IMG/VR virus record: IMGVR_UViG_3300035672_000076
Span: 1 to 29,738 of that record
DNA: 29,738 bases
Strand: one strand, 5' to 3'
Origin: a virus
Shown here: piece by piece, positions 7,532-27,030 of the stretch
Position numbering within the stretch: the first letter of the stretch is position 1
How the letters are laid out: every line of letters begins with the position of its first letter
Translations under genes and position numbers: made by a program
Notes under the pieces: generated by a model
What the model saw: the letters and a program-made list of their open reading frames with translations, nothing else
Told to the model about the DNA's origin: nothing
Databases searched by the model: none

Positions 7532-7961
7532 GGCCGCGCGGCATCAGAGTGTCGCTCAGCAGCGCAGGCGGTTTCATCCCAAGCACGCCATAGACGCCGG
7601 CAACCGCATCATCGACGAGCCCGACGAGTTCGTGTGCGCGGGCGTCCAACTCATCCCACTTCACCAGCCGCTCACAGACGCCCATGTCGCCGGGAGCGCC
7701 CTGCTTTTCGAGTTCATCGGGCGTCCGCGACGCGATATGGGCCCTGATCAGAATGCCGGTACTGATCCAATCCTCCGTGGCGATAACGCCGGTCCGGTTC
7801 GCTACGGTGCCGGACCATTGATTCATGATCCTGATGCGAAGCTTGCGCGTCGCCTCGAACTGGTGGCGCTGCGCGCGGTCCATCGCTGCCTTGATGTGCT
7901 CGCCTGTGGTCATTTGGTTTTTCTCCATGTTGTATCGCTGCACTTCGGCGGAAACGTCCAT
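7521..7961 (-). CDS. Hypothetical protein, 146 aa, coupled to GapR-like gene
   Basis: I do not recognise this protein. It is predicted soluble, begins [20 protein letters not shown] and continues with a helical stretch (GEHIKAAMDRAQRHQFEATR). Near the C-terminus it has DELDARAHELVGLVDDAVAG, which looks like a helix-loop-helix. The frame is open further upstream, but that part is the shadow of the GapR-like gene. The ATG at 7961 shares one base with the TGA of that gene (TGATG), so the two are translationally coupled. The 3' end overlaps the SNF2 start by 11 nt, so its product is probably made together with the helicase. Confidence 0.7.
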   Translation of the reverse strand: MDVSAEVQRYNMEKNQMTTGEHIKAAMDRAQRHQFEATRKLRIRIMNQWSGTVANRTGVIATEDWISTGILIRAHIASRTPDELEKQGAPGDMGVCERLVKWDELDARAHELVGLVDDAVAGVYGVLGMKPPALLSDTLMPRGHDA

Positions 7962-8242
7962 CACAGCATCCCCAACGCCTGCATATACGTCTCCAGGATG
8001 GTCTCCTGTTCTGCCCGCTCGCCTGCGTCCTGCTTGCGCAGGCGCACGATGGTGCGCAGCGCCTTGACGTCGAAGCCGTTGCCCTTGGCCTCCGCGTAGA
8101 CGTCGCGGATATCGTCCGAGATGGTTTTGCGCTCTTCCTCGAGGCGCTCGATCCGCTCGATGATGGACTTGAGCTGGTCCTTGGCGATGCGCGCCGGAGG
8201 CTCTTCGCGGATGGCGGCAGACGAATGGGCGTGCGCAAGCAT
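7961..8242 (-). CDS. gapR: GapR-like (DUF2312) DNA-binding protein
   Basis: The 93-residue protein matches the GapR/DUF2312 pattern almost from end to end: [48 protein letters not shown], then [14 protein letters not shown]. In Caulobacter, GapR is an essential nucleoid protein that clamps overtwisted AT-rich DNA ahead of forks and stimulates type II topoisomerases. Here the copy is inside the phage operon, just upstream of a coupled hypothetical gene and the SNF2 helicase, so it probably helps phage DNA replication or competes with host GapR. The ATG at 8242 is preceded by GGAGAGG. The family assignment is firm; the phage-specific role is inference. Confidence 0.9.
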
Positions 8243-8304: not shown

Positions 8305-8514
8305 TCAACGCGGCTCGATCTTCCAGCCGGCGTCGCGGATCGCCTTCAAGACGGTCGCCACGATGACACCGTCAGGATCGATCAAGCCGCCGGGTTTCCA
8401 CTCTGTGACGGACAGCGCGATCGCGATGGCTTCAGCAGGCTCAACCAACGGCCCAGCGGAGGGCTTGCGCGCGTCGACTGCGGCTTGATCGATGGTGCGG
8501 GGCGCAGAGGTCAA
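8305..8514 (-). CDS. Small hypothetical protein, 69 aa
   Basis: A short protein rich in small hydrophobic residues (AEAIAIALSV, then DGVIVATVLKAIRDAGWKIE), probably one small alpha/beta domain; I do not recognise it. The frame is open far upstream, but the real start is most likely TTG at 8514. It shares bases with the TGA of the hypermodification-type gene and has GGAGG 5 nt upstream. The tight coupling suggests that it is made together with that upstream protein. Confidence 0.6.
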   Translation of the reverse strand: MTSAPRTIDQAAVDARKPSAGPLVEPAEAIAIALSVTEWKPGGLIDPDGVIVATVLKAIRDAGWKIEPR

Positions 8515-9380
8515 TAGCCCCTCCCCGCCACGTAGCGCGTGCGCGGATGGCCATCGCCATTTTTCTCCCGCAGGTACTTGTCGGTCTCGCAAAGAATGTT
8601 CGGCACGTCGCTGAAATCCAGCATGACGTTGGTCTCTTGCTGCACGATTTTGTAGATCGCGCGCATCTCTGTCAGGGCTTGGCCTTGCGACAGCGGCGCA
8701 TCGACCGCGCGCCCGTGGATACGATTTAGACCGCGTAACGTTCCCGGGCCAGCGGCGGCCCATTCATAGGTATCAAGCGCGTGTCTCAGCAACGGCGTGA
8801 ACCGGATGTCCACTACGGCCTGATAAGCCATGAACTGGCCCCAGCCGCTGGTGCGGGTAATCAGTTCGTGCGTTCGCTGGAGCGTCGGTTTCCCCGCGAA
8901 GTGTTTTTCGAACACCTCGCGACGCTTCCAGAGGCCGCCTATAACCTCTTCGCAAACGTAAGCCTGTTTATCCGCGCCCTTCTTTGCCGGCGCCGAAATC
9001 ATGTAGGCGCCGGTCTCAATTTTCTTGCCCGCGGCTTTTCGTTGGTGAAGAACCTCCGTCATCTGGGCCGGAGCGAATTCAACGGCGTGCGGCCACGCAT
9101 CGGCGTTAATCAGGTCAGCCAAACTCTCCGGCCAATTGATCTGCCGCGCGATGCACAGCATAAACCACAGATTAGGCTGGCAGGCGAAGCGCTCGCGGAT
9201 GTTCTTCCGCACCCAGATCGTAACCAGGTCATCCTCTCGCCGAACATTGCAGAAGCGCCACTCCCGCAAGATCGGATCGACCGTCCATGACGCTTGATCC
9301 AAGCCCATATCCTTGCGGCGGCGGATTTCCTCGCGTTCACGGACCCAGTAGAACATCGGCGTATAATCGGGCTGGGTCAT
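8511..9380 (-). CDS. 5-hmdU DNA kinase helical-domain / thymine-hypermodification family protein
   Basis: The 289-residue protein carries the pattern of the family predicted to act in thymine hypermodification of phage DNA (HMUDK helical domain / alpha-glutamyl-putrescinyl-thymine pyrophosphorylase-like). Visible elements: FYWVREREEIRRRKDMG, ASWTVDPILREWRFCNVRRE, DDLVTIWV, LWFMLCIARQINWP, TLQRTHELITRTSGWGQFMA, AAGPGTLRGLNRIHGR, and near the end NILCETDKYLREKNGDG. There is no P-loop, so only the helical part is present. ATG at 9380 overlaps the upstream TGA (ATGA); an open extension to 9425 is shadow. No dUMP hydroxymethylase or separate hmdU kinase is seen here. Its neighbour upstream is MazG-like. 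Family recognition is from memory of its motifs; chemistry is inferred. Confidence 0.6.
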   Translation of the reverse strand: MTQPDYTPMFYWVREREEIRRRKDMGLDQASWTVDPILREWRFCNVRREDDLVTIWVRKNIRERFACQPNLWFMLCIARQINWPESLADLINADAWPHAVEFAPAQMTEVLHQRKAAGKKIETGAYMISAPAKKGADKQAYVCEEVIGGLWKRREVFEKHFAGKPTLQRTHELITRTSGWGQFMAYQAVVDIRFTPLLRHALDTYEWAAAGPGTLRGLNRIHGRAVDAPLSQGQALTEMRAIYKIVQQETNVMLDFSDVPNILCETDKYLREKNGDGHPRTRYVAGRGY

Positions 9381-9739
9381 TTTGCTATCCCCAACACGAC
9401 CTTGGCGGCATGCCTCTTCTGCCAATGTTCTTTTGGCAAGCGCTGCACGCGCGCGAATTCCCGTGCCGCTTCATCACTGGCGGAAACGCCGATGCTGGCG
9501 GCAAGCATTTCGAGGGTCGCCGACGCCTGCCCTATCTCACGGGCGATATCGCCGGGCTTTCGCGTATAGACGCGCTCGATCATGTTGCCGAGCGCGATTT
9601 CTAACACGCCTTCGGCATGTGCCACCTCGATTGCCTCTTCGACAAAGCGCATCGCTCGCTCGTGCCGATCGGCGGCGACGGGACCAAAAATCCCGATGGC
9701 CCAATCTAGGAATTGTTCGCCAATGCTTTTTGTGATCAT
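9377..9739 (-). CDS. MazG-like nucleotide pyrophosphohydrolase-type protein
   Basis: The 120-residue all-helical protein has an acidic metal-binding pattern typical of MazG-like NTP pyrophosphohydrolases: RHERAMRFVEEAIEVAHAEG, then GDIAREIGQASATLEMLAAS. MazG-type enzymes cleave (d)NTPs to (d)NMPs and pyrophosphate, and phages use them to shape the nucleotide pool. I start it at ATG 9739, which shares ATGA with the upstream stop; a TTG at 9751 is an alternative. It lies directly upstream of the thymine-hypermodification-type gene, which fits a role in removing an unmodified dNTP. The substrate cannot be read from sequence, and the fold call is moderate. Confidence 0.6.
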   Translation of the reverse strand: MITKSIGEQFLDWAIGIFGPVAADRHERAMRFVEEAIEVAHAEGVLEIALGNMIERVYTRKPGDIAREIGQASATLEMLAASIGVSASDEAAREFARVQRLPKEHWQKRHAAKVVLGIAK

Positions 9740-10074
9740 CGGGTTTTCCAATCAGGAAACGGCCGCTCAATCTCGCGGCCCCACCATCGCTTGCGAAGCC
9801 CACGGAATCCGGGAATTGGTTGGTCAATTGTGCAGGCTACGGCGCCGCCCTTGCGCACGATCGCGCCGCCCTGCAGGCCGAGCGTCGGCGCCCAGCCGCG
9901 CAACCTTCCGTGCGCGACAACGTAGAACCGGTCGCCGGGCAGGATCAGCGAACGGAACTTGTGCTTGGTGTACCAGCCCCACTCTTCGCCGGTCTCAGGC
10001 TGACCCGCGGCATCGCCTTCCGCGATCCATTCTTCCCAAAAATCTTTCGGGCACGTACCTACAAGATCAACCAT
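9736..10074 (-). CDS. Conserved phage hypothetical protein, 112 aa
   Basis: This soluble protein has the run CPKDFWEEWIAEGDAAG, then EEWGWYTKHK, LPGDRFYVVAHGRLRGWAP, GGAIVRKGGAVA, and a Trp/Arg-rich end (GFRGLRKRWWGREIERPFPD). The beta-rich middle with a PGDRFYVV element suggests a small barrel, possibly ASCH/PUA-like, which would fit a nucleic-acid-binding role; this is a guess. ATG at 10074 has GAGGT 5 nt upstream; codons further upstream lack a ribosome binding site. It is coupled by ATGA to the MazG-like gene. Confidence 0.65.
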   Translation of the reverse strand: MVDLVGTCPKDFWEEWIAEGDAAGQPETGEEWGWYTKHKFRSLILPGDRFYVVAHGRLRGWAPTLGLQGGAIVRKGGAVACTIDQPIPGFRGLRKRWWGREIERPFPDWKTR

Positions 10075-10164
10075 AGCTGACCTCGCGCGTCTCATGCCGC
10101 TTGTTCGGCGAAAGCCAGAGCGATCCCCATGGCTGCCATAGGGAGAGGGCTTTGAGTGTATTGG

Positions 10165-10431
10165 TCATCGGGCACCAACCCGAAATGTCCGGGCACCAAC
10201 CTCAAACTGAATGTGCCTGAAATATCGCGCAGATATTCCGAGCGCGAGGATGGTTGGCCGACCGTAGTCAATATTGCGATACACCTTGAAATGGATTGAC
10301 CAATGGCGTCTAACCCACGGCAGCAACGGGCGCGGAGAGATATCCAACCGCCACGTTTCGACCCGCGCGAGATCGGCGAAAACGATGAGCGTCAAAAACA
10401 ACGCCGCGCCGGATATCATGGCCAATGTCAT
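10165..10431 (-). CDS. Small single-pass membrane protein, 88 aa
   Basis: The N-terminal segment MISGAALFLTLIVFADLA is a clear transmembrane helix or uncleaved signal anchor, followed by a basic, aromatic-rich soluble tail (VRRHWSIHFKVYRNIDYGRP). The ATG at 10431 overlaps the TGA of the helicase-methyltransferase gene (TGATG), and a GTG sits one codon earlier. I do not recognise the family. After it comes a 90-nt gap with nothing evident before the next gene. Confidence 0.55.
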   Translation of the reverse strand: MTLAMISGAALFLTLIVFADLARVETWRLDISPRPLLPWVRRHWSIHFKVYRNIDYGRPTILALGISARYFRHIQFEVGARTFRVGAR

Positions 10432-13400
10432 CACGCCTCAATCTCCATCATGTCCGTGGGGGGGGGGGTATTGACGGCATCGAATGTCGCCAGATCGAAC
10501 AGCTGCGGCGTTTCCATCTTCTCTTCGGCCATGCGCAGGTAGTGCACGCCGTCAAGGAAATAGGACGCGGAGAGTTCGGTTGCGGCGCCCCGGCGCTTTT
10601 TCAGCAGCGCGCGATAAGGCACGGTCATCAGGCCGCCGAACGGATCGAAGATTAGGTCCCCTTCATTCGAGTATCGCTCAATCAGGCGATCGACGATATC
10701 AAACTGAATCGGACAAAGATGCATCTCAGCGCCTTTGCGTTGCTGCATCATGTTCAATGTCCGCATCCGGTTGATGTCGGACCAAACGTCGGGATGGTGC
10801 GAGCCAGGCGCGATCGCCATGAAGGTCGCCGGCAGTGAACCCGTGCGCTCGACCGCTTCGCCGATCTTGACGTGCGCCTCGTAATTATAGATTCGCTGGG
10901 CGCTGGTTTTCGAGAAAAGCTTGGCAAGATCGGCAGACGAGCACTGCGCAAATTCTTCAGGTCTCAAGTGCCGATCGCCGCTCGATGACCAGAACGAATG
11001 GGCATCGATCTGCCAGCGCGCGCGGGAGCATCCGTCGTTTTCGCCGTCCCATTTTTCCTTTGTAACGGGCACATCGGCGTAGCTGCGCGACCGGTCGCTC
11101 TGCGGCTTGCGCAAGAGCAGGATGTATTCCGGCATGCCGACGCCCATCTTGGTGCCGTCCTTGCACATTTCGCTCCAGCCGAGCCGGTAGGTCTGGTTGT
11201 TTTCGCGCACGACGTCGGTGACGACGGTGATCATGCCGCAGTAGTCGAAGCCATGGGCCCGATAGTGCATGATCGCTTCGGCGTGGAATGGAGAAACCGT
11301 CGGCACGCCGGCACCCGTAACCGATCCGAACAGTACCCGATCCTTGACGTGGATGCAGGCGAGCCGGCCGGGCTTGAGCATCCGCAACAGGTGCACGGTC
11401 AAGAAGTCCATCTGACTCCAGAAGTGGCCTGAATCATCGCTGTGGCCGAAATCCTCATAGCGCGCGGAATATTCGTACTGGTTGCCGAACGGGACGGAGG
11501 TGATGATCTCGTCGACCGAATTATCCGGCCAGGTCCTGCATTCGGCGACCGCGTCATTGTTGATGGCGATAAAGTTCGCGCCCCTGATCTCGACCCGCTG
11601 CACCCCGATCGTGCGCAGCAACGCATCGCGCAAGGGCAGCGTGTTGAGGCCGTGCGCCTTGATGATCTCCGACATCCGCGTGCGCATCTCGGTATCGCGC
11701 TGCCACTTTTCCTCCAGCGCCGCACGGCCGGCGCGCTCGTCCTCCGAATAGATGATGTCGACTTCGACCAGGTGCGCCTGGCCGAAGCGCTGCAGCCGGT
11801 ACAGCGACTGCAGGAAATCGTTGAACTTGTAGCCGTAGCCCGGCAGCGCGACATAGATCGCCTTGTGGCAGTGGTATTGGAAATTCGATCCGGACCCGGA
11901 CAGGATAGGCTTGGTGGCGAAGTGTCTGGTCTCGCCTTCCTCGAAGGCGCGCAGGCGTTCTTCGCGATCGTCAATGTCCATGCTGCCCATGATGGTGACG
12001 ACGCCGGGCAGCGCCTGTTCGATCGCTTCGCGCTCGGCCTCGAGGTCGTGCCAGATCACGCGATGGCTGTCGGGATCCTGCGCGATGATCTCCACCATCT
12101 TTGCGATCCGCGACGACAGGCTGTCGCGGCGCGACTTGGCCGCGTCCTGCAGGCTGTTGGCGACATTGCGGAACATGACGCCCTGCCCGTCGCGCTCCGG
12201 CACGGCCTTGGAATGATCTGCCGGCACCTCGTGCCAGGTGAGCTTTAGCGGCGGCAGTTCATAGCCTTCATCACTGTAGCCGAGTTCGGACGGGCGCTGC
12301 AGGAACGCACAGTACGAGTGAATCCACATCCAGAATTCATCAGCTTTATGTGGATACAAAGTCAGATCGCCGGCCTTTTCCGGGTTGCGCTGGAACCAGC
12401 GTGTCAATGCGAGACCGGTATCCATCACGCCAAGGAAGCCGGCATAGTGGATCAGTTCCTTGTAGCGGTTCGGCGAAGGGGTCGCGGTTGCGACCAGCTT
12501 GAACACGACCTTGGAGAACAGCGGCAGGAATTCCTGAAACGTTTTTGAGCCGTAGCTGCGCAGCACGCTCGCCTCATCCAGAGACGTCGCCATGAACAGG
12601 TTCGGATCGAGCTTGCCCTCGCGGATTGATTCATAGTTCGTGAGGAAGTGGACCACACCCTCCGCCGTGAGCGCGTGGAACTCCGCATTGGTGCGGATGA
12701 AGCGCACGTCCATGCCGAGCTGCAGCGCTTCCTTGATGAAGCCGTGACGGACGCCGAGCGGAACGACGTTCAGCGTGGCGCCGCCGACATGGCGATGCAG
12801 TTGCCGGCACCATTCCAGCTGCATCGCCGTCTTGTGCAGGCCGAAATTGGCGAAGATGGCAGCGCATCCCAGCCGCAGGGCCCAGAGCGTCAGGTCCTTG
12901 CAGTGAGGTTTCAGCCATGGATGCAGGTCGTCGCGTCTGACCTCGATGCCGCGCAAGGGTGCGGTAACGATCTTGTCCTCGAGGAAGGCGTCATAGGACG
13001 GCCATTCGATGGCGAGGTCGTCGTCATCGGAAAGGGGTGCTGTCTCTCCAGCTGTCCCACCACTTTCGGCGGCTGCTCGTTCGCAGGTGGCGCTATCCGT
13101 CTCTCCGGCCGTCACGTCCGTACCCGACGTTGCGGCGCCATTCACAGCATCGGCAACGGCATGATCCGTCCCGCCGACCGTATCGCCGTCGCCCAGCGAT
13201 CCTGTAGAGCCTGCGCAAATTTGCGCAGGCTGGCATGCTTGACACTTCGCATCGGTTTCTGACGGGGCGAGGGCGATAGCGCCGTCCCCGGGGCCGCTTT
13301 CCCCGCCTCCGTCAGAACTTTTGAGCAACGCTTCGCCTGCTTCGGTCAGGCTGATCCGCGTCGTCGTCGCATGTACCAGGCCGTCAACGACAAGCCCGCG

Positions 13401-14321
13401 CACGATCGAGAACGTGACCTGTTCGCCGGCCGCGATCGCGCGCAGCGCTGAAAGGGTTGAGCCCGCGCCGTCTGGGGGCGCGTCAGGCGCGGGCTCTCTC
13501 TCACGCAGAGGCGGGGATGAAGCGCCCTCCGCGAGATGCGGCGCTGAGGTTAGCCCTCCGGCGCCGGGTCGGGATTTAGGTCGTGACTTTTTGGGCTTTT
13601 CAGCGCCGATAGGTTGTCCGCGCCCGTCCACCTTCTCCGGCAGATGATCGAACGATTGCCAGTGAGCTTCTTCGGCGGCGGTCACGCGATCGTTGCTGCC
13701 CCACTTGAAAGAAATGACGCAGTTGCCGCACTCGCAGGTGGCCATATTCACCATCTGGCCGTTGACGATCGGGTTGGTTCGCCAGAAGCAATGTCCGGCC
13801 GGATAGAATTTCCGTGCGAGATAGGCGGTGTAGAGTTCGGCGACGACCGGATCGGTGATTTCCTCTACGGTCGTTTTGACGCCTAAGACACTGTTCGGAT
13901 TGGGCGGAGGGTTGATTTCCTCCGATCTCGGTTTACCGATATCAGCCAGCAGCGACCGCGCCCAATGGATGACCTGGTTGCCGTAGTCGGCGCTCCACTG
14001 CGTCCCCTCGCCTTCCTCGTTGCCCATGTAGGTTTGCGCGCGGCAGACGACCTCTTCGACAGCCGACTGCAAGGCCTCTTCGCGGTCCACGAAGAACATG
14101 GGCACGTCCACCCGGAACCCCGGCGGATGGGCCAGCCACTTGCCGTTTTCCAGTTCCAGAACGCCGATCTTTGCCAAGGGCGAGCGGAAACGCGGGTTGT
14201 CGTGTTCGAACATCTCGCCCTGGTCGTCGCGGAAGGCGAGACCGCCGATGCCGAGCGGAGGCTCGCCGGCGGCGTTGCGGAGGATGGGGGTTGCGGATGT
14301 GGCGCGGGCGGTAGCGTTCAT
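10431..14321 (-). CDS. Giant fusion: N-terminal domain, winged helix, SNF2-like helicase, DNA methyltransferase
   Basis: The 1296-residue protein joins at least four parts. Residues 1-230 form an uncharacterised domain with a Cys cluster (C196, C198, C201). Residues 285-335 look like a winged helix ending TRISLTEAGEALL. Low-complexity linkers (240-285, 338-432) contain a palindromic insertion read as PAQICA (365-370). A SNF2-like helicase spans about 450-870: GLHKT (494-498) in place of GLGKT, DEAS (582-585), ATATPSP, and QSLYRLQRFGQ (838-848). The C-terminal methyltransferase has SVPF (942-945) where N4-C/N6-A enzymes have (D/N/S)PP(Y/F/W), and motif I FDPFGG near 1230, a beta-class order. 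ATG at 14321 overlaps the upstream stop (ATGA). Likely self-methylation of phage DNA coupled to translocation; activity of the altered motifs is uncertain. Confidence 0.85.
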   Translation of the reverse strand: MNATARATSATPILRNAAGEPPLGIGGLAFRDDQGEMFEHDNPRFRSPLAKIGVLELENGKWLAHPPGFRVDVPMFFVDREEALQSAVEEVVCRAQTYMGNEEGEGTQWSADYGNQVIHWARSLLADIGKPRSEEINPPPNPNSVLGVKTTVEEITDPVVAELYTAYLARKFYPAGHCFWRTNPIVNGQMVNMATCECGNCVISFKWGSNDRVTAAEEAHWQSFDHLPEKVDGRGQPIGAEKPKKSRPKSRPGAGGLTSAPHLAEGASSPPLREREPAPDAPPDGAGSTLSALRAIAAGEQVTFSIVRGLVVDGLVHATTTRISLTEAGEALLKSSDGGGESGPGDGAIALAPSETDAKCQACQPAQICAGSTGSLGDGDTVGGTDHAVADAVNGAATSGTDVTAGETDSATCERAAAESGGTAGETAPLSDDDDLAIEWPSYDAFLEDKIVTAPLRGIEVRRDDLHPWLKPHCKDLTLWALRLGCAAIFANFGLHKTAMQLEWCRQLHRHVGGATLNVVPLGVRHGFIKEALQLGMDVRFIRTNAEFHALTAEGVVHFLTNYESIREGKLDPNLFMATSLDEASVLRSYGSKTFQEFLPLFSKVVFKLVATATPSPNRYKELIHYAGFLGVMDTGLALTRWFQRNPEKAGDLTLYPHKADEFWMWIHSYCAFLQRPSELGYSDEGYELPPLKLTWHEVPADHSKAVPERDGQGVMFRNVANSLQDAAKSRRDSLSSRIAKMVEIIAQDPDSHRVIWHDLEAEREAIEQALPGVVTIMGSMDIDDREERLRAFEEGETRHFATKPILSGSGSNFQYHCHKAIYVALPGYGYKFNDFLQSLYRLQRFGQAHLVEVDIIYSEDERAGRAALEEKWQRDTEMRTRMSEIIKAHGLNTLPLRDALLRTIGVQRVEIRGANFIAINNDAVAECRTWPDNSVDEIITSVPFGNQYEYSARYEDFGHSDDSGHFWSQMDFLTVHLLRMLKPGRLACIHVKDRVLFGSVTGAGVPTVSPFHAEAIMHYRAHGFDYCGMITVVTDVVRENNQTYRLGWSEMCKDGTKMGVGMPEYILLLRKPQSDRSRSYADVPVTKEKWDGENDGCSRARWQIDAHSFWSSSGDRHLRPEEFAQCSSADLAKLFSKTSAQRIYNYEAHVKIGEAVERTGSLPATFMAIAPGSHHPDVWSDINRMRTLNMMQQRKGAEMHLCPIQFDIVDRLIERYSNEGDLIFDPFGGLMTVPYRALLKKRRGAATELSASYFLDGVHYLRMAEEKMETPQLFDLATFDAVNTPPPTDMMEIEA
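10458..10468. repeat. 11-base homopolymer G tract near the end of the fusion gene
   Basis: Eleven consecutive G on the plus strand (C on the coding strand) encode the PPP about nine codons from the C-terminus. Slippage would change only the last residues and the overlap with the next gene. It is also a typical place for a sequencing error. Confidence 0.8.
13208..13231. repeat. Palindromic element, copy 1 (in a coding linker)
   Basis: A perfect 24-bp palindrome with the core TGCGCAAATTTGCGCA. It is inside the helicase-methyltransferase gene, in frame, in the Ala/Gly/Ser/Thr-rich linker before the helicase, where it reads PAQICA. It shares 20 identical bases with copies 2 and 3. Confidence 0.85.
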
Positions 14322-14662: not shown

Positions 14663-15021
14663 CGCATCGGCTCCATCGCCAGCGTGACCCGGGACACCTC
14701 AACACGGCGCTGATCCAGCGCGCTGCGCCCGGGCAACGGGTCGCCGAAAAACTCCGCCGTAATGCTACGATGTTGCGGGCGCGTCTCGCGGATTTCCTTG
14801 GCGAGCGCGGTTGCCTCCAGGCGGCGGATGCGCTGGACCGAGACGTGCTTGGCTTCGCCCCGCTCGCGGCGCTTCAACGTATTGTACTGCACCTTGCAGG
14901 CCGTGCCGGTGCGGTTGAGACGCAAGCCGATCTCGCCCCATTGCTCGCCCTTGTCGCCGGCTGCGAGCAGTTTCGTGTTCTCAGCGTCGGTCCAGAGTTC
15001 GCCCTTGCGGTCCGGCTTCAT
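14659..15021 (-). CDS. SANT/Myb-like DNA-binding protein, 120 aa
   Basis: Residues 8-55 (LWTDAENTKLLAAGDKGEQW, then IGLRLNRTGTACKVQYNTLK) have the tryptophan spacing and three-helix pattern of SANT/Myb-like or GcrA-like HTH domains, so DNA binding is likely. The rest is basic and partly helical (IRRLEATALAKEIRETRP). ATG at 15021 overlaps the stop of the C5 methyltransferase gene (ATGA); the open frame upstream is shadow. Coupling to a methyltransferase raises the possibility that it regulates or targets methylation, but nothing in the sequence proves it. Confidence 0.65.
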   Translation of the reverse strand: MKPDRKGELWTDAENTKLLAAGDKGEQWGEIGLRLNRTGTACKVQYNTLKRRERGEAKHVSVQRIRRLEATALAKEIRETRPQHRSITAEFFGDPLPGRSALDQRRVEVSRVTLAMEPMR

Positions 15022-17129
15022 TCCGCCGCCTCCATGAACTGAGGCGCGGGCTCTACATCGCGCGGCGCATAGTTCGCGCCTATCAGCGCTTCCGCCACCG
15101 GAGGGCAAACGCTGTTGCCGCACTTATTAACCTGCTGCGTTTTGGAGATCGGCGTCCCGTCCGGCCTGCGATCGATCTTGTAGGTTTTCGGGAATCCGTT
15201 GGCGCCGTACAGTTCGGGCGGCACGAGCATTCGCATCCCGACGTCGACGATGACGACGGTGATGCCGCAAATCTCGACCGTGACGAACTCGCGATCATCC
15301 CAGAGGCCATGCAAGCGGAGGAGATCAGCGACCTTGCGCGCCTTGACTTCGTGCTCCGGCGTGAACGGCGGCAGATCGAGCAGCACCTGGTGCAACCCGA
15401 ACCTGTGTTTCGAGGTAACCGTGTGCAGAGGCTCGTCAAGCTGCGGGTCCTGATCCGCGCCATAGTACTTCTGCAGAAGAGCGACGGAGAGTTGCGTCTT
15501 GCCCTGCCCGTCCGCCATCACAGTGCGTGCAGGCTCATCCATTGACGATCCGACGCCGGTCCCGAATTGCCGCAATAGATTGGCAGCGACGACACTCTGA
15601 TGCGATCCGGACTGCAGGATGGTGGATAGCGGCACCTCGATCGGATGCCCCGCGTTGCCCTCGCCCGTGCGGCCGTCGATGTTGTTCTGCGCAAGGAATG
15701 CGGCGACCACGGCGTGATGCCCGCCTGTGGTAATCGTCTTGAGTGGTTCATCCGCGCCGGAGTGAGGCTTGTCGCCGAAGTTGCTCTTGACGATTGAGGC
15801 CGCGACTAGGGACAGCCCCGCGCCGCCCGCTGTAACCGTATGTGTCGGCTTGTCCGCTTCGTTGAACGGCTTCTGCGCGTTGCGCATGGTCATCAGGTGA
15901 GCAGCAACCACTTGGTTCTGATCTTTCGGCGAAGCCGTGATCGTATGAAGCGGCGCATCGGACGGCCGCACACTGCCGCCCTGCTGGGCGGCGGCGATGA
16001 AGGGCGCGACCACGACGCTGTCAGCTTTTGAAGTCAGGGTTTGGGCAGGCCGATCTACCCCGCGCGGTTCGGTCTGCCCCATCCGTCCGCCGACGCCGGC
16101 TATGAACGGCGTAACCAGCATTCCGGGCGCGTTGCCGTGCGACGTAATGGTGGCGGCCGGCTCTTCGCAGCTGCGCGTTCGGGGATCCTGCCCGGGCTTC
16201 TCCTGATAGCGCGGCGCGAAGTATGGCGTCACCAGCGCTTTCTCGCCACGATGCGCCCCGGTGACCGTTCTCAGCGGATCGTTGACGTCTTGCGTCTGCC
16301 CGGCGCCGTGATGCGTGAGGTTGACGATAAACGGTTTTGCCGCGTCGACAACATATCGGCGGATGCCTTTTGCTAGCCGCGCGGTCGACGCATTGGCCAG
16401 CGGCCGCACGGCGCGGAGGCCGTACTTCGCCTTGATCTCTGCGGCGCTATCGAAGATCGATGGGCACGGCAGCGACCAGTCGATGATCTCCGCTGCCGTG
16501 CGCCAGGGCTTGAGCCTGCCGGATTTGACGGCTTCCGTTTTCGGGTCGCCATGCGTCGGCATCGGCCAGATGATCGGTTCGCCGTCTCTCTTCGCAATGA
16601 GAAAAAGCCGCTTTCGGATCGTCGGCGCGCCATAGTCGCAGGCGCGCAGCTCGCGCCACTCCACGACGTAGCCGAGCGTTTCCAATTCCTTCAGCCAGCG
16701 CTTGAACGTGAGACCCTTTTGCAGCGGACACGGCCTGTTATCAGCGCCGAGCGGTCCCCATGTCGCGAACTCTTCGACGTTCTCCATGATGATGACGCGC
16801 GGCGCAACCACGTTGGCCCAATGAACGACCACCCAGGCGAGCCCGCGGATTTTCTTTTCTACCGGCTTGCCGCCCTTGGCTTTGCTGAAATGCTTGCAGT
16901 CCGGCGATGCCCAGAGCAACCCGACGGGACGACCGCCGCACGCTTCGACCGGGTCGACGTCCCAGATATCCGAGGTCAGGTGCAGCGTCTGCGGATGGTT
17001 TACCTCGTGCATCGCAAGTGCTGTCGCGTCATGGTTGATCGCGATGTCCGGCGAGCGGCCAAGCGCCATCTCGATGCCGGTCGAGGCACCTCCGCCGCCC
17101 GCGAAGCTGTCGACGATCAATTCGATCAT
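15018..17129 (-). CDS. DNA (cytosine-5) methyltransferase with a nine-repeat central region
   Basis: The 703-residue protein has the ordered C5-methyltransferase motifs: I DSFAGGGGASTGI (7-19), IV SPDCKHFSKAKGG with the likely catalytic Cys at 78, VI ENVEEF (116-121), VIII RKRLF (172-176), and C-terminal motif X GNSVCPPVAEALIGAN. It transfers methyl from AdoMet to C5 of cytosine. The segment 283-584, where the target recognition domain should be, consists of nine degenerate repeats of the form (D/E)xPxxT(V/I/L)T followed by a VxPF/VAA strand, every 32-39 residues. The protein is much longer than a typical Dcm (about 400-470). ATG at 17129 overlaps the upstream stop. It probably protects phage DNA from restriction. 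Confidence 0.92.
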   Translation of the reverse strand: MIELIVDSFAGGGGASTGIEMALGRSPDIAINHDATALAMHEVNHPQTLHLTSDIWDVDPVEACGGRPVGLLWASPDCKHFSKAKGGKPVEKKIRGLAWVVVHWANVVAPRVIIMENVEEFATWGPLGADNRPCPLQKGLTFKRWLKELETLGYVVEWRELRACDYGAPTIRKRLFLIAKRDGEPIIWPMPTHGDPKTEAVKSGRLKPWRTAAEIIDWSLPCPSIFDSAAEIKAKYGLRAVRPLANASTARLAKGIRRYVVDAAKPFIVNLTHHGAGQTQDVNDPLRTVTGAHRGEKALVTPYFAPRYQEKPGQDPRTRSCEEPAATITSHGNAPGMLVTPFIAGVGGRMGQTEPRGVDRPAQTLTSKADSVVVAPFIAAAQQGGSVRPSDAPLHTITASPKDQNQVVAAHLMTMRNAQKPFNEADKPTHTVTAGGAGLSLVAASIVKSNFGDKPHSGADEPLKTITTGGHHAVVAAFLAQNNIDGRTGEGNAGHPIEVPLSTILQSGSHQSVVAANLLRQFGTGVGSSMDEPARTVMADGQGKTQLSVALLQKYYGADQDPQLDEPLHTVTSKHRFGLHQVLLDLPPFTPEHEVKARKVADLLRLHGLWDDREFVTVEICGITVVIVDVGMRMLVPPELYGANGFPKTYKIDRRPDGTPISKTQQVNKCGNSVCPPVAEALIGANYAPRDVEPAPQFMEAAE

Positions 17130-22776: not shown

Positions 22777-23844
22777 ATGGCCTCCGCCGCTTCAACTGCC
22801 GAGATTGACGCACTGATCGCGTCCAGCGCGCCGGTTGCCATTGGAGTTTCCGGCGGAAAGGACAGCCAGGCTGCTGCCCTCGCGACGTTCGCCTATCTCG
22901 ACAGCAAGGGCCATACGGGTCCGCGCGTGTTGGTGCACGCCGATCTCGGCATGGTCGAATGGGACGCTTCCCTGCCCGTCTGCGAGAAGCTGGCGGCCCA
23001 TCTGGGCGCGGAACTTATCGTCGTGCGCCGCAAGGCTGGCGGCCTGATGGAGCGATGGGAGGCGCGCTGGCAGTCCAGCCTGCGCCGCTACATCAACCTT
23101 GAAACCGTCTGCCTCGTTTTGCCGTGGTCGACGCCGGCAATGCGCTTCTGCACTTCGGAGCTTAAGACGCATCCCATCCGCGCAGAGCTTCGCCGCCGCT
23201 TCAAGAAATGCGTGTTCATCAATGTTACCGGAGTTCGCCGGGCGGAAAGCGCCGCGCGAGCAAAGAGCACGATCGCCGCATTCGACGCGGCAGGCAACGC
23301 CGATTGGCGGCCGATAGCCGACTTGCAGGAACCTGAGGTTTTTGACTTCATCGCCGAAAACGGTCTCCAGCCTCACGAAGCCTATACCGAATTCGGCATG
23401 TCCCGCGTGTCCTGCAAGTTCTGCATCATGTCGAGCGCCGCCGATATTGTCGCGGCGGCGGCGGTCCCGGAATCGCAGGATCTTTATTGCCGAATGGTTG
23501 GCCTCGAAATCGCGAGCACCTTTGCCTTTCAAGGCAACAAGTGGCTAGGCGACGTTGCCCCGCACCTATTGGGCTTTAGCCGCGTCGAAGAATTTCAGAA
23601 CAGCAAAATCCGCGCGCTCGCGAGGATTGCCGTCGAGGCCAGGGTGACCAAGGCCATGCGCTACGTCAGCGGATGGCCAACGCGCATGCTGACGGACGAC
23701 GAAGCGGAAACGCTCGGCAGCGTCCGGCGAGCCATCGGCGGCCTTTTCAGCATCGAACCTCTCTACCTGGACGTTCCCAGCATCCACGGCCGCTACGCCG
23801 CGCTGATCGCGCAGCGCGAGGCCAAGCTTCGTACCGCAGCGTAA
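22777..23844 (+). CDS. PAPS-reductase-family PP-loop protein
   Basis: The 355-residue protein has the ATP-pyrophosphatase PP-loop VSGGKDS (24-30), HADLGMVEWD, the CTSELK motif (Cys125) and TGVRRAES, which define the PAPS-reductase/DndC-like superfamily, plus a CKFC pair (C213, C216) that could hold a metal or Fe-S cluster. Such enzymes adenylate a substrate, usually for sulfur or nitrogen transfer. It lacks the usual C-terminal redox Cys motif of assimilatory PAPS reductase and is longer, so sulfate reduction is unlikely. Nucleic-acid or nucleotide modification is a better guess. It is first in the rightward operon, behind an operator-bearing promoter. No dndB/D/E or brxC-type partners are visible. 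Confidence 0.85.
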   Translation: MASAASTAEIDALIASSAPVAIGVSGGKDSQAAALATFAYLDSKGHTGPRVLVHADLGMVEWDASLPVCEKLAAHLGAELIVVRRKAGGLMERWEARWQSSLRRYINLETVCLVLPWSTPAMRFCTSELKTHPIRAELRRRFKKCVFINVTGVRRAESAARAKSTIAAFDAAGNADWRPIADLQEPEVFDFIAENGLQPHEAYTEFGMSRVSCKFCIMSSAADIVAAAAVPESQDLYCRMVGLEIASTFAFQGNKWLGDVAPHLLGFSRVEEFQNSKIRALARIAVEARVTKAMRYVSGWPTRMLTDDEAETLGSVRRAIGGLFSIEPLYLDVPSIHGRYAALIAQREAKLRTAA

Positions 23845-25649: not shown

Positions 25650-25957
25650 AACGCATCGGGGTCATTCTCGAAACGCTCGATGGACAGGAAATGCTTAAGG
25701 TCACAGACCCCCTTTTCGTCGCCATCGTTGCAGACCGGTTCGTCATTGACGATCAGCGCACCCCGATAAGGAAGGCAACGAAACAGGTACGCGACAGATG
25801 CTCGGCGGTAGCCCGCCTACTTTCGCCTGACAAGAAGAAGCGCTGGATGCCGACAATAAACGGCAAGATTGTTGCCGGCGGGAACTTGCCGTTCGGCGGC
25901 TTTGGCACTCGCCGCGAAGCGATCGCAGCCGCAAAACGATTTGAGGCGAGCTCGTGA
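25646..25957 (+). CDS. Hypothetical protein, 103 aa
   Basis: Starts at GTG (GTGA overlap). It reads KRIGVILETLDGQEMLKVTD, then a basic section (TPIRKATKQVRDRCS, LSPDKKKRWMPTINGKIVAG), ending GGFGTRREAIAAAKRFE. That last element resembles the end of AP2/integrase-arm-like small beta-sheet DNA-binding domains, but the match is weak. Function unknown. Confidence 0.55.
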   Translation: MKRIGVILETLDGQEMLKVTDPLFVAIVADRFVIDDQRTPIRKATKQVRDRCSAVARLLSPDKKKRWMPTINGKIVAGGNLPFGGFGTRREAIAAAKRFEASS

Positions 25958-27030
25958 GCAAATCCGCGATCGAATGGACGGAAGAGACGTGGAATCCGAT
26001 CGTCGGTTGTTCGCTGAAATCCCACGGGTGTACCAACTGCTATGCCATGCCGATGGCGGCGCGGATCGAAGCCATCAATGCCGCCCTCGTCGCCGAAGGC
26101 AAGTCGCCGCAGTCCCCGCAATATGACGGCACAACCAAAAAGGTGAACGGCCACGCGGTTTGGACCGGCAAGCTGGCGATGGCCGGCAACAACGTCCTGC
26201 TCGCGCCCTTGAAGCGGAAGAAGCCGACGACGTATTTCGTCAATTCGATGGGCGATCTCTTTCATGAAGATTGCCCGGACGAATGGATTGATCCCGTATT
26301 CGCCGTCATGGCGCTGACACCTCACCATATCTACCAAGTGTTGACGAAGCGCCCTGCCCGCATGCTGGATTATTGTTCTAGACGGGGCATCAGCGGACAG
26401 ATTTCAGATCAAGCCGCGCTGATGCTTAAGAAAAACGGCTACCATAATTTTCCAACATGGCCTCTCCCCAACGTCTGGCTTGGCGTTTCGACCGAACGCC
26501 AACAGGAGGCCGACGAGCGGATTCCGCTGCTGCTACAAACGCCGGCTGCAATTCGGTTCATCAGCGCCGAGCCGTTGATTGGGCCGATCAACTTGACGCG
26601 CTTCAGGTGTGATCACCCAGCCTTTCCAGGGGAAGGATCGGCACAGTGCGACGCGCTGATCGGCTCGATTTATGATCGGGCTAATTTTCCCGTCCAGGCC
26701 AGCAACAAACTCGACTGGATCATGGTAGGCGGCGAGAGCGGCCCCGATGCCCGACCGATGCATCCGGACTGGGCAAGATCGCTGCAGGTGCAGTGCGAAG
26801 CCGCCGGCGTGAAGTTCTTCTTCAAGCAATGGGGCAGTTGGATGCCAGATCAACCGGATGGCAGTGCTCTACGCGGCTCAATGGTTGCGTGGCCAGACGG
26901 CACAGTCGGCAACGGACACGCGGAAGCGCACGGCGGTCCCGGAATTTTCATGTTCAACCGCGGCAAGCATCGCGCCGGCCGTTCCCTCGATGGCATCGTA
27001 TACAACGGCATGCCGGGACGCGCAGCATGA
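25954..27030 (+). CDS. Phage Gp37/Gp68 family protein (DUF5131), radical-SAM-like
   Basis: The 358-residue protein opens with the family signature IEWTEETWNPIVGCSLKSHG and continues CTNCYAM. This gives a CX6CX2C cluster (C19, C26, C29) of the kind proposed to hold a 4Fe-4S centre. It continues with YFVNSMGDLFHEDCP, YQVLTKRPARML, NVWLGVSTERQQEADERIPL, IRFISAEPLIGPI, and WIMVGGESGPDARPMHPDWA, all family hallmarks. The start is GTG at 25954, overlapping the previous stop. DUF5131 proteins are widespread in phages and their reaction is not known to me; a radical chemistry on nucleic acid is possible. Confidence in the family is high. Confidence 0.9.
   Translation: MSKSAIEWTEETWNPIVGCSLKSHGCTNCYAMPMAARIEAINAALVAEGKSPQSPQYDGTTKKVNGHAVWTGKLAMAGNNVLLAPLKRKKPTTYFVNSMGDLFHEDCPDEWIDPVFAVMALTPHHIYQVLTKRPARMLDYCSRRGISGQISDQAALMLKKNGYHNFPTWPLPNVWLGVSTERQQEADERIPLLLQTPAAIRFISAEPLIGPINLTRFRCDHPAFPGEGSAQCDALIGSIYDRANFPVQASNKLDWIMVGGESGPDARPMHPDWARSLQVQCEAAGVKFFFKQWGSWMPDQPDGSALRGSMVAWPDGTVGNGHAEAHGGPGIFMFNRGKHRAGRSLDGIVYNGMPGRAA

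Follow-up and report, generated by a model that had tools for sequence, protein, structure and literature searches.

What does a member of a DNA-hypermodification family do in a phage where none of the enzymes that usually accompany it can be found? The question arises from a 29,738-base viral contig, hereafter the window (contigs in the source collection are often fragments), in which a minus-strand open reading frame at 8511-9380, with an ATG start and a predicted product of 289 aa (ORF list and translation), belongs to the HMUDK_hel family. HMUDK_hel proteins of the type found in Pseudomonas phage M6 are helical, DNA-glycosylase-like proteins whose companions are a dUMP hydroxymethylase and, in many cases, a P-loop 5-hmdU DNA kinase.

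Family Assignment of the 289-aa Protein

The 289-aa protein matches PF18723 (HMUDK_hel) in Pfam over 267 residues, with an E-value of 1.4e-41, a score of 143.2 bits against a cut-off of 25 and a profile span of 6-276 of 281, and it also matches phrog_2396 in PHROG (E 1e-58). All 30 columns that are invariant in 66 aligned family sequences are kept. Because dN/dS between relatives is about 0.09-0.22, the open reading frame is a real gene under selection. Judged by its sequence, the protein is a full-length conserved member of the family of M6 gp55 ("aGPT-Pplase1"). The profile search bears out the family call of the first-pass annotation, 5-hmdU DNA kinase helical; of its double label, HMUDK_hel stands, while "pyrophosphorylase" is an older name of the same family. 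PADLOC gave no match for the protein, and a sequence search of the PDB gave no credible one.

Pfam divides the M6 pathway into three families, namely HMUDK_hel (gp55), the P-loop kinase HMUDK_HMUD1 (gp54) and ADDT (gp51), the latter an amino acid:DNA transferase with solved structures (25qc and 8z2m). M6 gp55 belongs to the same Pfam family over its full length, is 37% identical (tblastn) and has nearly all motifs aligned. In the phage record collection, the nearest relatives (44-46%) come from an uncharacterised cassette of the Rhizobium phages RHph_TM26 and I65. The TM26 protein likewise shares nearly all motifs with the 289-aa protein, but TM26 has an adjacent kinase, ADDT and thymidylate synthase (TS) family gene.

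Gene Surroundings in the Window

The 289-aa gene overlaps both of its neighbors by 4 nt, and the genes named here between 7961 and 14321 all lie on the minus strand. The 69-aa gene overlapping its 3' end (8305-8514) has no family match in Pfam or PHROG. On the other side, the product of 9377-9739/9751 (120-124 aa), which had been labeled "MazG-like," matches no MazG profile; no Pfam match at E ≤ 1 and no NCBIfam match at E ≤ 0.1 supports that label, and its PHROG matches are only of unknown function. It is followed by a hypothetical gene (112-119 aa; 9736-10095, or to 10074), to which genes in three further orphan records (records in which HMUDK_hel stands without the pathway enzymes) are weakly related. 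The wider context comprises a GapR-like DNA-binding protein (7961-8242; PF10073, E 1.4e-35) and, in the same-strand run, a helicase fused to an N4/N6 DNA methyltransferase (10431-14321; phrog_16, E 1.4e-117; PF01555, E 1e-9). This run includes replication, helicase, and methyltransferase genes and is not a typical prophage defence module. On the plus strand, a DUF5131 protein (25954-27030; PF07505) and a tyrosine integrase indicative of a temperate phage (28626-29738; phrog_1, E 4.7e-47) are found.

Three methyltransferase-like genes are present in this phage. One product, encoded at 15018-17129, is a 703-aa C5 cytosine methyltransferase in which a long insertion splits the profile match. A PAPS-reductase-like protein (PF01507, E 1.9e-9) is encoded at 22777-23844.

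Absence of the Partner Enzymes From a Clade of Relatives

Profile searches of the window gave no TS-family gene, P-loop hmdU kinase or ADDT, in agreement with the earlier observation that a dUMP hydroxymethylase and a P-loop hmdU kinase are missing from it. Since the window is a 29.7-kb viral fragment, this absence alone proves nothing, and relatives were therefore fetched from viral contigs and bacterial genomes. TS was searched for as PF00303, the family that includes the TS-like hydroxymethylase of M6. It was absent from all 27 orphan viral records and present in 21 of 21 other viral records as well as in M6 and TM26. Among orphan-like relatives fetched later (L156-L160) it was found in 0 of 5, the neighboring loci L161 and L162 being positive. 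In total, 32 viral records of this clade, on contigs of up to 67 kb and one of 225 kb, gave no TS/dUMP-hydroxymethylase gene. When the comparison is confined to loci flanked on each side by 3 kb or more, TS is found in 89 of 90 non-orphans vs. 0 of 23 orphans (Fisher p 4e-23, a value that overstates independence because the rows are related). TS lies within 3 kb of HMUDK_hel in 163 of the 167 TS-positive loci, and it was not found in orphans with 10-kb flanks, nor in whole orphan contigs 47-67 kb long. Row L033 is ambiguous: it falls close to the orphans, but its contig (G027) carries a TS-family gene at a distance of about 13 kb. Only one non-orphan locus, L250, lacks TS, and on its 33.7-kb contig a 633-aa open frame contains a match to ADDT.

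The other partners are missing as well. The kinase family PF18748 was detected in none of the 27 orphan viral records scanned whole, nor in G027, nor in the whole genomes of Bradyrhizobium sp. LHD-71 (7.5 Mb) and an Enhydrobacter MAG; the same scan gave a match in five of the TS-bearing records that served as controls. Custom profiles for the kinase, ADDT, the radical SAM protein and the PLP enzyme matched 0 of 27 orphan records or loci vs. 11 to 21 of 23 loci outside the clade, and ADDT (PF18724) was found in 0 of 5 later records. A search for TET/JBP proteins, an alternative source of hmdU, gave no match, although it was run without a positive control. The suggestion that the missing enzymes are encoded elsewhere is contradicted by the counts for TS and kinase, and the clade is very probably free of partner enzymes.

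The loss of the kinase had also been considered as a hallmark of the orphans, and was dropped: 79 distinct TS-bearing viral HMUDK_hel rows, a number of which have short flanks, show no recognisable P-loop kinase, so that kinase absence alone means little. Given these rows, TS and HMUDK_hel may form a minimal pair. Pairs of TS and aG/PT-PPlase1 in pelagiphages similarly combine HMUDK_hel with no obvious P-loop kinase (PMC9599517). These pairs retain TS, unlike the orphan clade. According to the pelagiphage study, TS in M6-like systems is always accompanied by aG/PT-PPlase1 (PMC9599517); the converse is disproved by the orphan clade, in which HMUDK_hel occurs without TS.

As regards the origin of the clade, an IQ-TREE analysis of 90 rows requires a single state change for the TS-less rows, support being weak for the full TS-less set (68/13) and higher for a 27-row core (96/90). 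FastTree places the orphans among 177 rows in a 30-row group with a support of 98; the TS-bearing L030, L032, and L161 adjoin this group, and the placement of the TS-less L160 is unsettled. The trees are most simply read as a single loss of the pathway in the descent from an ancestor that had TS.

In chromosomes of Hyphomicrobiaceae and Hyphomonadaceae, HMUDK_hel is followed by a TS-like gene at five loci (L088, L089, L091, L092, and L096), and all except L091 also have a protein of about 270 aa with an internal repeat, the L089 copy having no Pfam match. No PF18748 kinase was detected in three whole genomes from this set. At L089 the cassette comes after recA and a gene that, from reading its sequence, we take to be uracil-DNA-glycosylase-like.

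Neighborhoods of the Orphan Genes

A conserved operon partner was sought by all-against-all comparison and by Pfam and PHROG scans of 150 neighbors. None was found, no neighbor family being common to more than five orphan loci. The one family reaching five is the small downstream gene, at position +1 or +2, represented in the window by the 69-aa gene. With this gene alone recurring, in 5 of about 26 orphan loci, and the other flanking genes not conserved along with HMUDK_hel, the term "cassette" used in the first-pass annotation is unsupported. Across different phages the orphan gene adjoins helicase, methyltransferase, terminase, or portal genes. Bradyrhizobium LHD-71 has a solitary chromosomal copy among metabolic genes, flanked by what, from reading the sequences, are presumably a GntR-type regulator and a tripartite-transporter binding protein. 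Such varied and unshared neighborhoods are the behavior of a self-sufficient single gene.

DUF5131 (PF07505) was examined as a partner on the strength of its distribution (p 0.003), with 9 of the 31 orphan viral records but none of 24 outside the clade carrying it. It was rejected, being seldom adjacent and possibly a reflection of host-lineage background.

Distant HMUDK_hel genes occur on two bacterial plasmids. One, from Allocoleopsis (L155), lies by HTH, ImmA/IrrE, thymidylate synthase, and NTP pyrophosphohydrolase genes, and the other, from Rhizobium (L153), by HTH, ImmA/IrrE, and dCTP deaminase genes. A bacterial operon for nucleotide modification or defence is possible at these loci.

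Predicted Fold and Conserved Residues

An AlphaFold2 model built with 66 relatives has a pLDDT of 94.6 (a single-sequence model, with a pLDDT of 35, was unusable). Its best Foldseek matches in the PDB are 8-oxoguanine DNA glycosylases of the HhH-GPD type (at best probability 1.0, E 0.03 and TM 0.4-0.5; over the glycosylase matches E 0.03 or worse and TM 0.3-0.5; 10-15% identity), and in a viral library they are HMUDK_hel proteins, the SP10 5-hmdU kinase, ADDT, and endonuclease III. ADDT (PF18724; PDB 8z2m and 25qc), which acts in the same pathway and has structurally similar viral models, belongs to a different Pfam family and has no sequence match to the 289-aa protein. The predicted fold resembles base-flipping DNA glycosylases, and on account of it the 289-aa protein is likely to be a base-flipping protein acting on DNA. 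Of the two readings offered at first, that of some other role (base flipping or action on another substrate, for example) is hence the better one.

About 60 positions are at least 90% conserved both inside and outside the orphan clade. The hairpin-like motif GWGQF (codons 179-183; 8832-8846, minus strand), in which G181 and F183 never vary among 66 sequences while conservation of G179 and W180 reaches at least 90%, would correspond to the HhH hairpin; Q182 then stands where the post-hairpin lysine of lyase-type glycosylases would be expected. D203 (8772-8774), invariant in all 66 sequences, is a candidate counterpart of the catalytic Asp of HhH-GPD enzymes. Other invariant polar or charged residues, of kinds typical of an active site, include R48, E49, D51, K138, R216, R220, C264, E265, and K268.

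The groups differ in a loop. The stretch GAYMISAPAKKGADKQAYV (codons 124-142; 8955-9011, minus strand) is replaced in most kinase-bearing relatives by RAES..WY.W.K, the differing region being residues 129-137. A Trp is found there in 26 of 31 kinase-bearing vs. 6 of 77 kinase-less loci (p 1.5e-14, the rows being related). The Trp loop of M6 gp55 is absent from the orphans, as it is from kinase-less TS-bearing relatives and the Hyphomicrobium proteins. This distribution suggests that the loop may dock the kinase. Positions 47 and 50 (R/F and D/L) were discarded as marks of the orphans, because the TS-bearing L030, L032, L035, and L041 share VRREDD.

Possible Roles of the Orphan Protein

An HMUDK_hel protein left without the enzymes that make the base is probably put to stand-alone use. 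It would bind DNA and flip a 5-substituted uracil into its pocket, acting with no phage-encoded partner and with the recognition pocket retained. The conserved residues are shared with relatives from the hmdU pathway, yet the phage itself makes no hmdU; the favored substrate would therefore be a 5-substituted uracil in DNA of other origin, in the first place the hmdU of competing phages, which might be excised, marked, or blocked. Taken together, an orphan, partner-free, base-flipping HMUDK_hel acting on such foreign bases is a plausible reading that falls somewhat short of an even chance. Action on foreign hmdU-type DNA, considered by itself, is proposed tentatively and by analogy. The same caution applies to the view that the clade left hmdU biosynthesis and became a single-gene DNA-base enzyme, perhaps attacking or marking the DNA of rivals.

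The analogy is with Brig1, an anti-phage DNA glycosylase attacking a modified phage base, alpha-glucosyl-hmC (PMC11078745). The likeness concerns only the proposed logic of one protein against a modified base in phage DNA; Brig1 differs in its base and in having uracil-DNA glycosylases as best structural matches. A machine-learning study predicted aGPT-Pplase domains to be defensive without experimental validation, and validated a system with a "5-hmdU DNA kinase" domain that may or may not be HMUDK_hel (PMC13092281). Several points weigh against the favored reading. Conservation of the residues may be due to fold and DNA binding rather than to the same base, the Foldseek E-values are 0.03 or worse, Q182 would stand in place of the lysine, and integrases occur in only 6 of 25 orphan records.

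The chief objection is the setting in the window among replication, helicase, and methyltransferase genes, which is at least equally compatible with action on the DNA of the phage itself. In that case an unmodified base, whether T or another, would be flipped and modified by means of a small cofactor or host enzyme, with an anti-restriction role like that of Mu Mom. Methyltransferases also lie near other orphans, and the similarly folded ADDT proteins are themselves DNA base enzymes. This alternative is nevertheless somewhat less likely, as the protein has no cofactor domain or conserved partner and its conserved residues match those of hmdU-pathway relatives. The lack of a cofactor domain, together with the missing kinase-associated loop, would suit a base-flipping scaffold kept as a non-enzymatic binder of phage or host DNA or as a decoy for a host defence protein; the invariance of ten active-site-type residues, D203 included, makes this improbable. 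There is also a low probability that the hmdU pathway is complete, its other enzymes being supplied by the host, too divergent to recognise, or encoded on stretches of the contigs that were not sequenced. The records are without exception linear contigs and in some cases fragments, the TET/JBP search lacked a positive control, and the missing kinase says little, but the close spacing of TS elsewhere, its absence from the long orphan flanks and contigs, and the kinase-free Bradyrhizobium LHD-71 genome argue against it. A decaying relic of a lost hypermodification pathway, which the missing partners might suggest, is very improbable, being already contradicted by the selection data (dN/dS about 0.1) and by more than 25 intact, divergent copies in the clade with invariant motifs.

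Significance of a Cassette-Free Clade

No published report of the orphan clade was found in the literature compared, which did not include the main pathway papers, so that its novelty is a judgement. The role of HMUDK_hel has so far been inferred from the context of modification cassettes, for instance that of M6, where gp55 is flanked by the P-loop kinase (gp54), ADDT (gp51), a PLP enzyme, a radical SAM protein, and the TS-like hydroxymethylase (gp58) (PMC9476957), none of which accompanies the orphans. A clade of about 30 viral records free of such cassettes is a natural experiment that parts the activity of HMUDK_hel from those of the kinase and hydroxymethylase, and its members are single genes directly assayable on hmdU DNA. 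If action on foreign hmdU DNA is true, the orphan HMUDK_hel would be a counterpart of Brig1 for thymine-modified phages.
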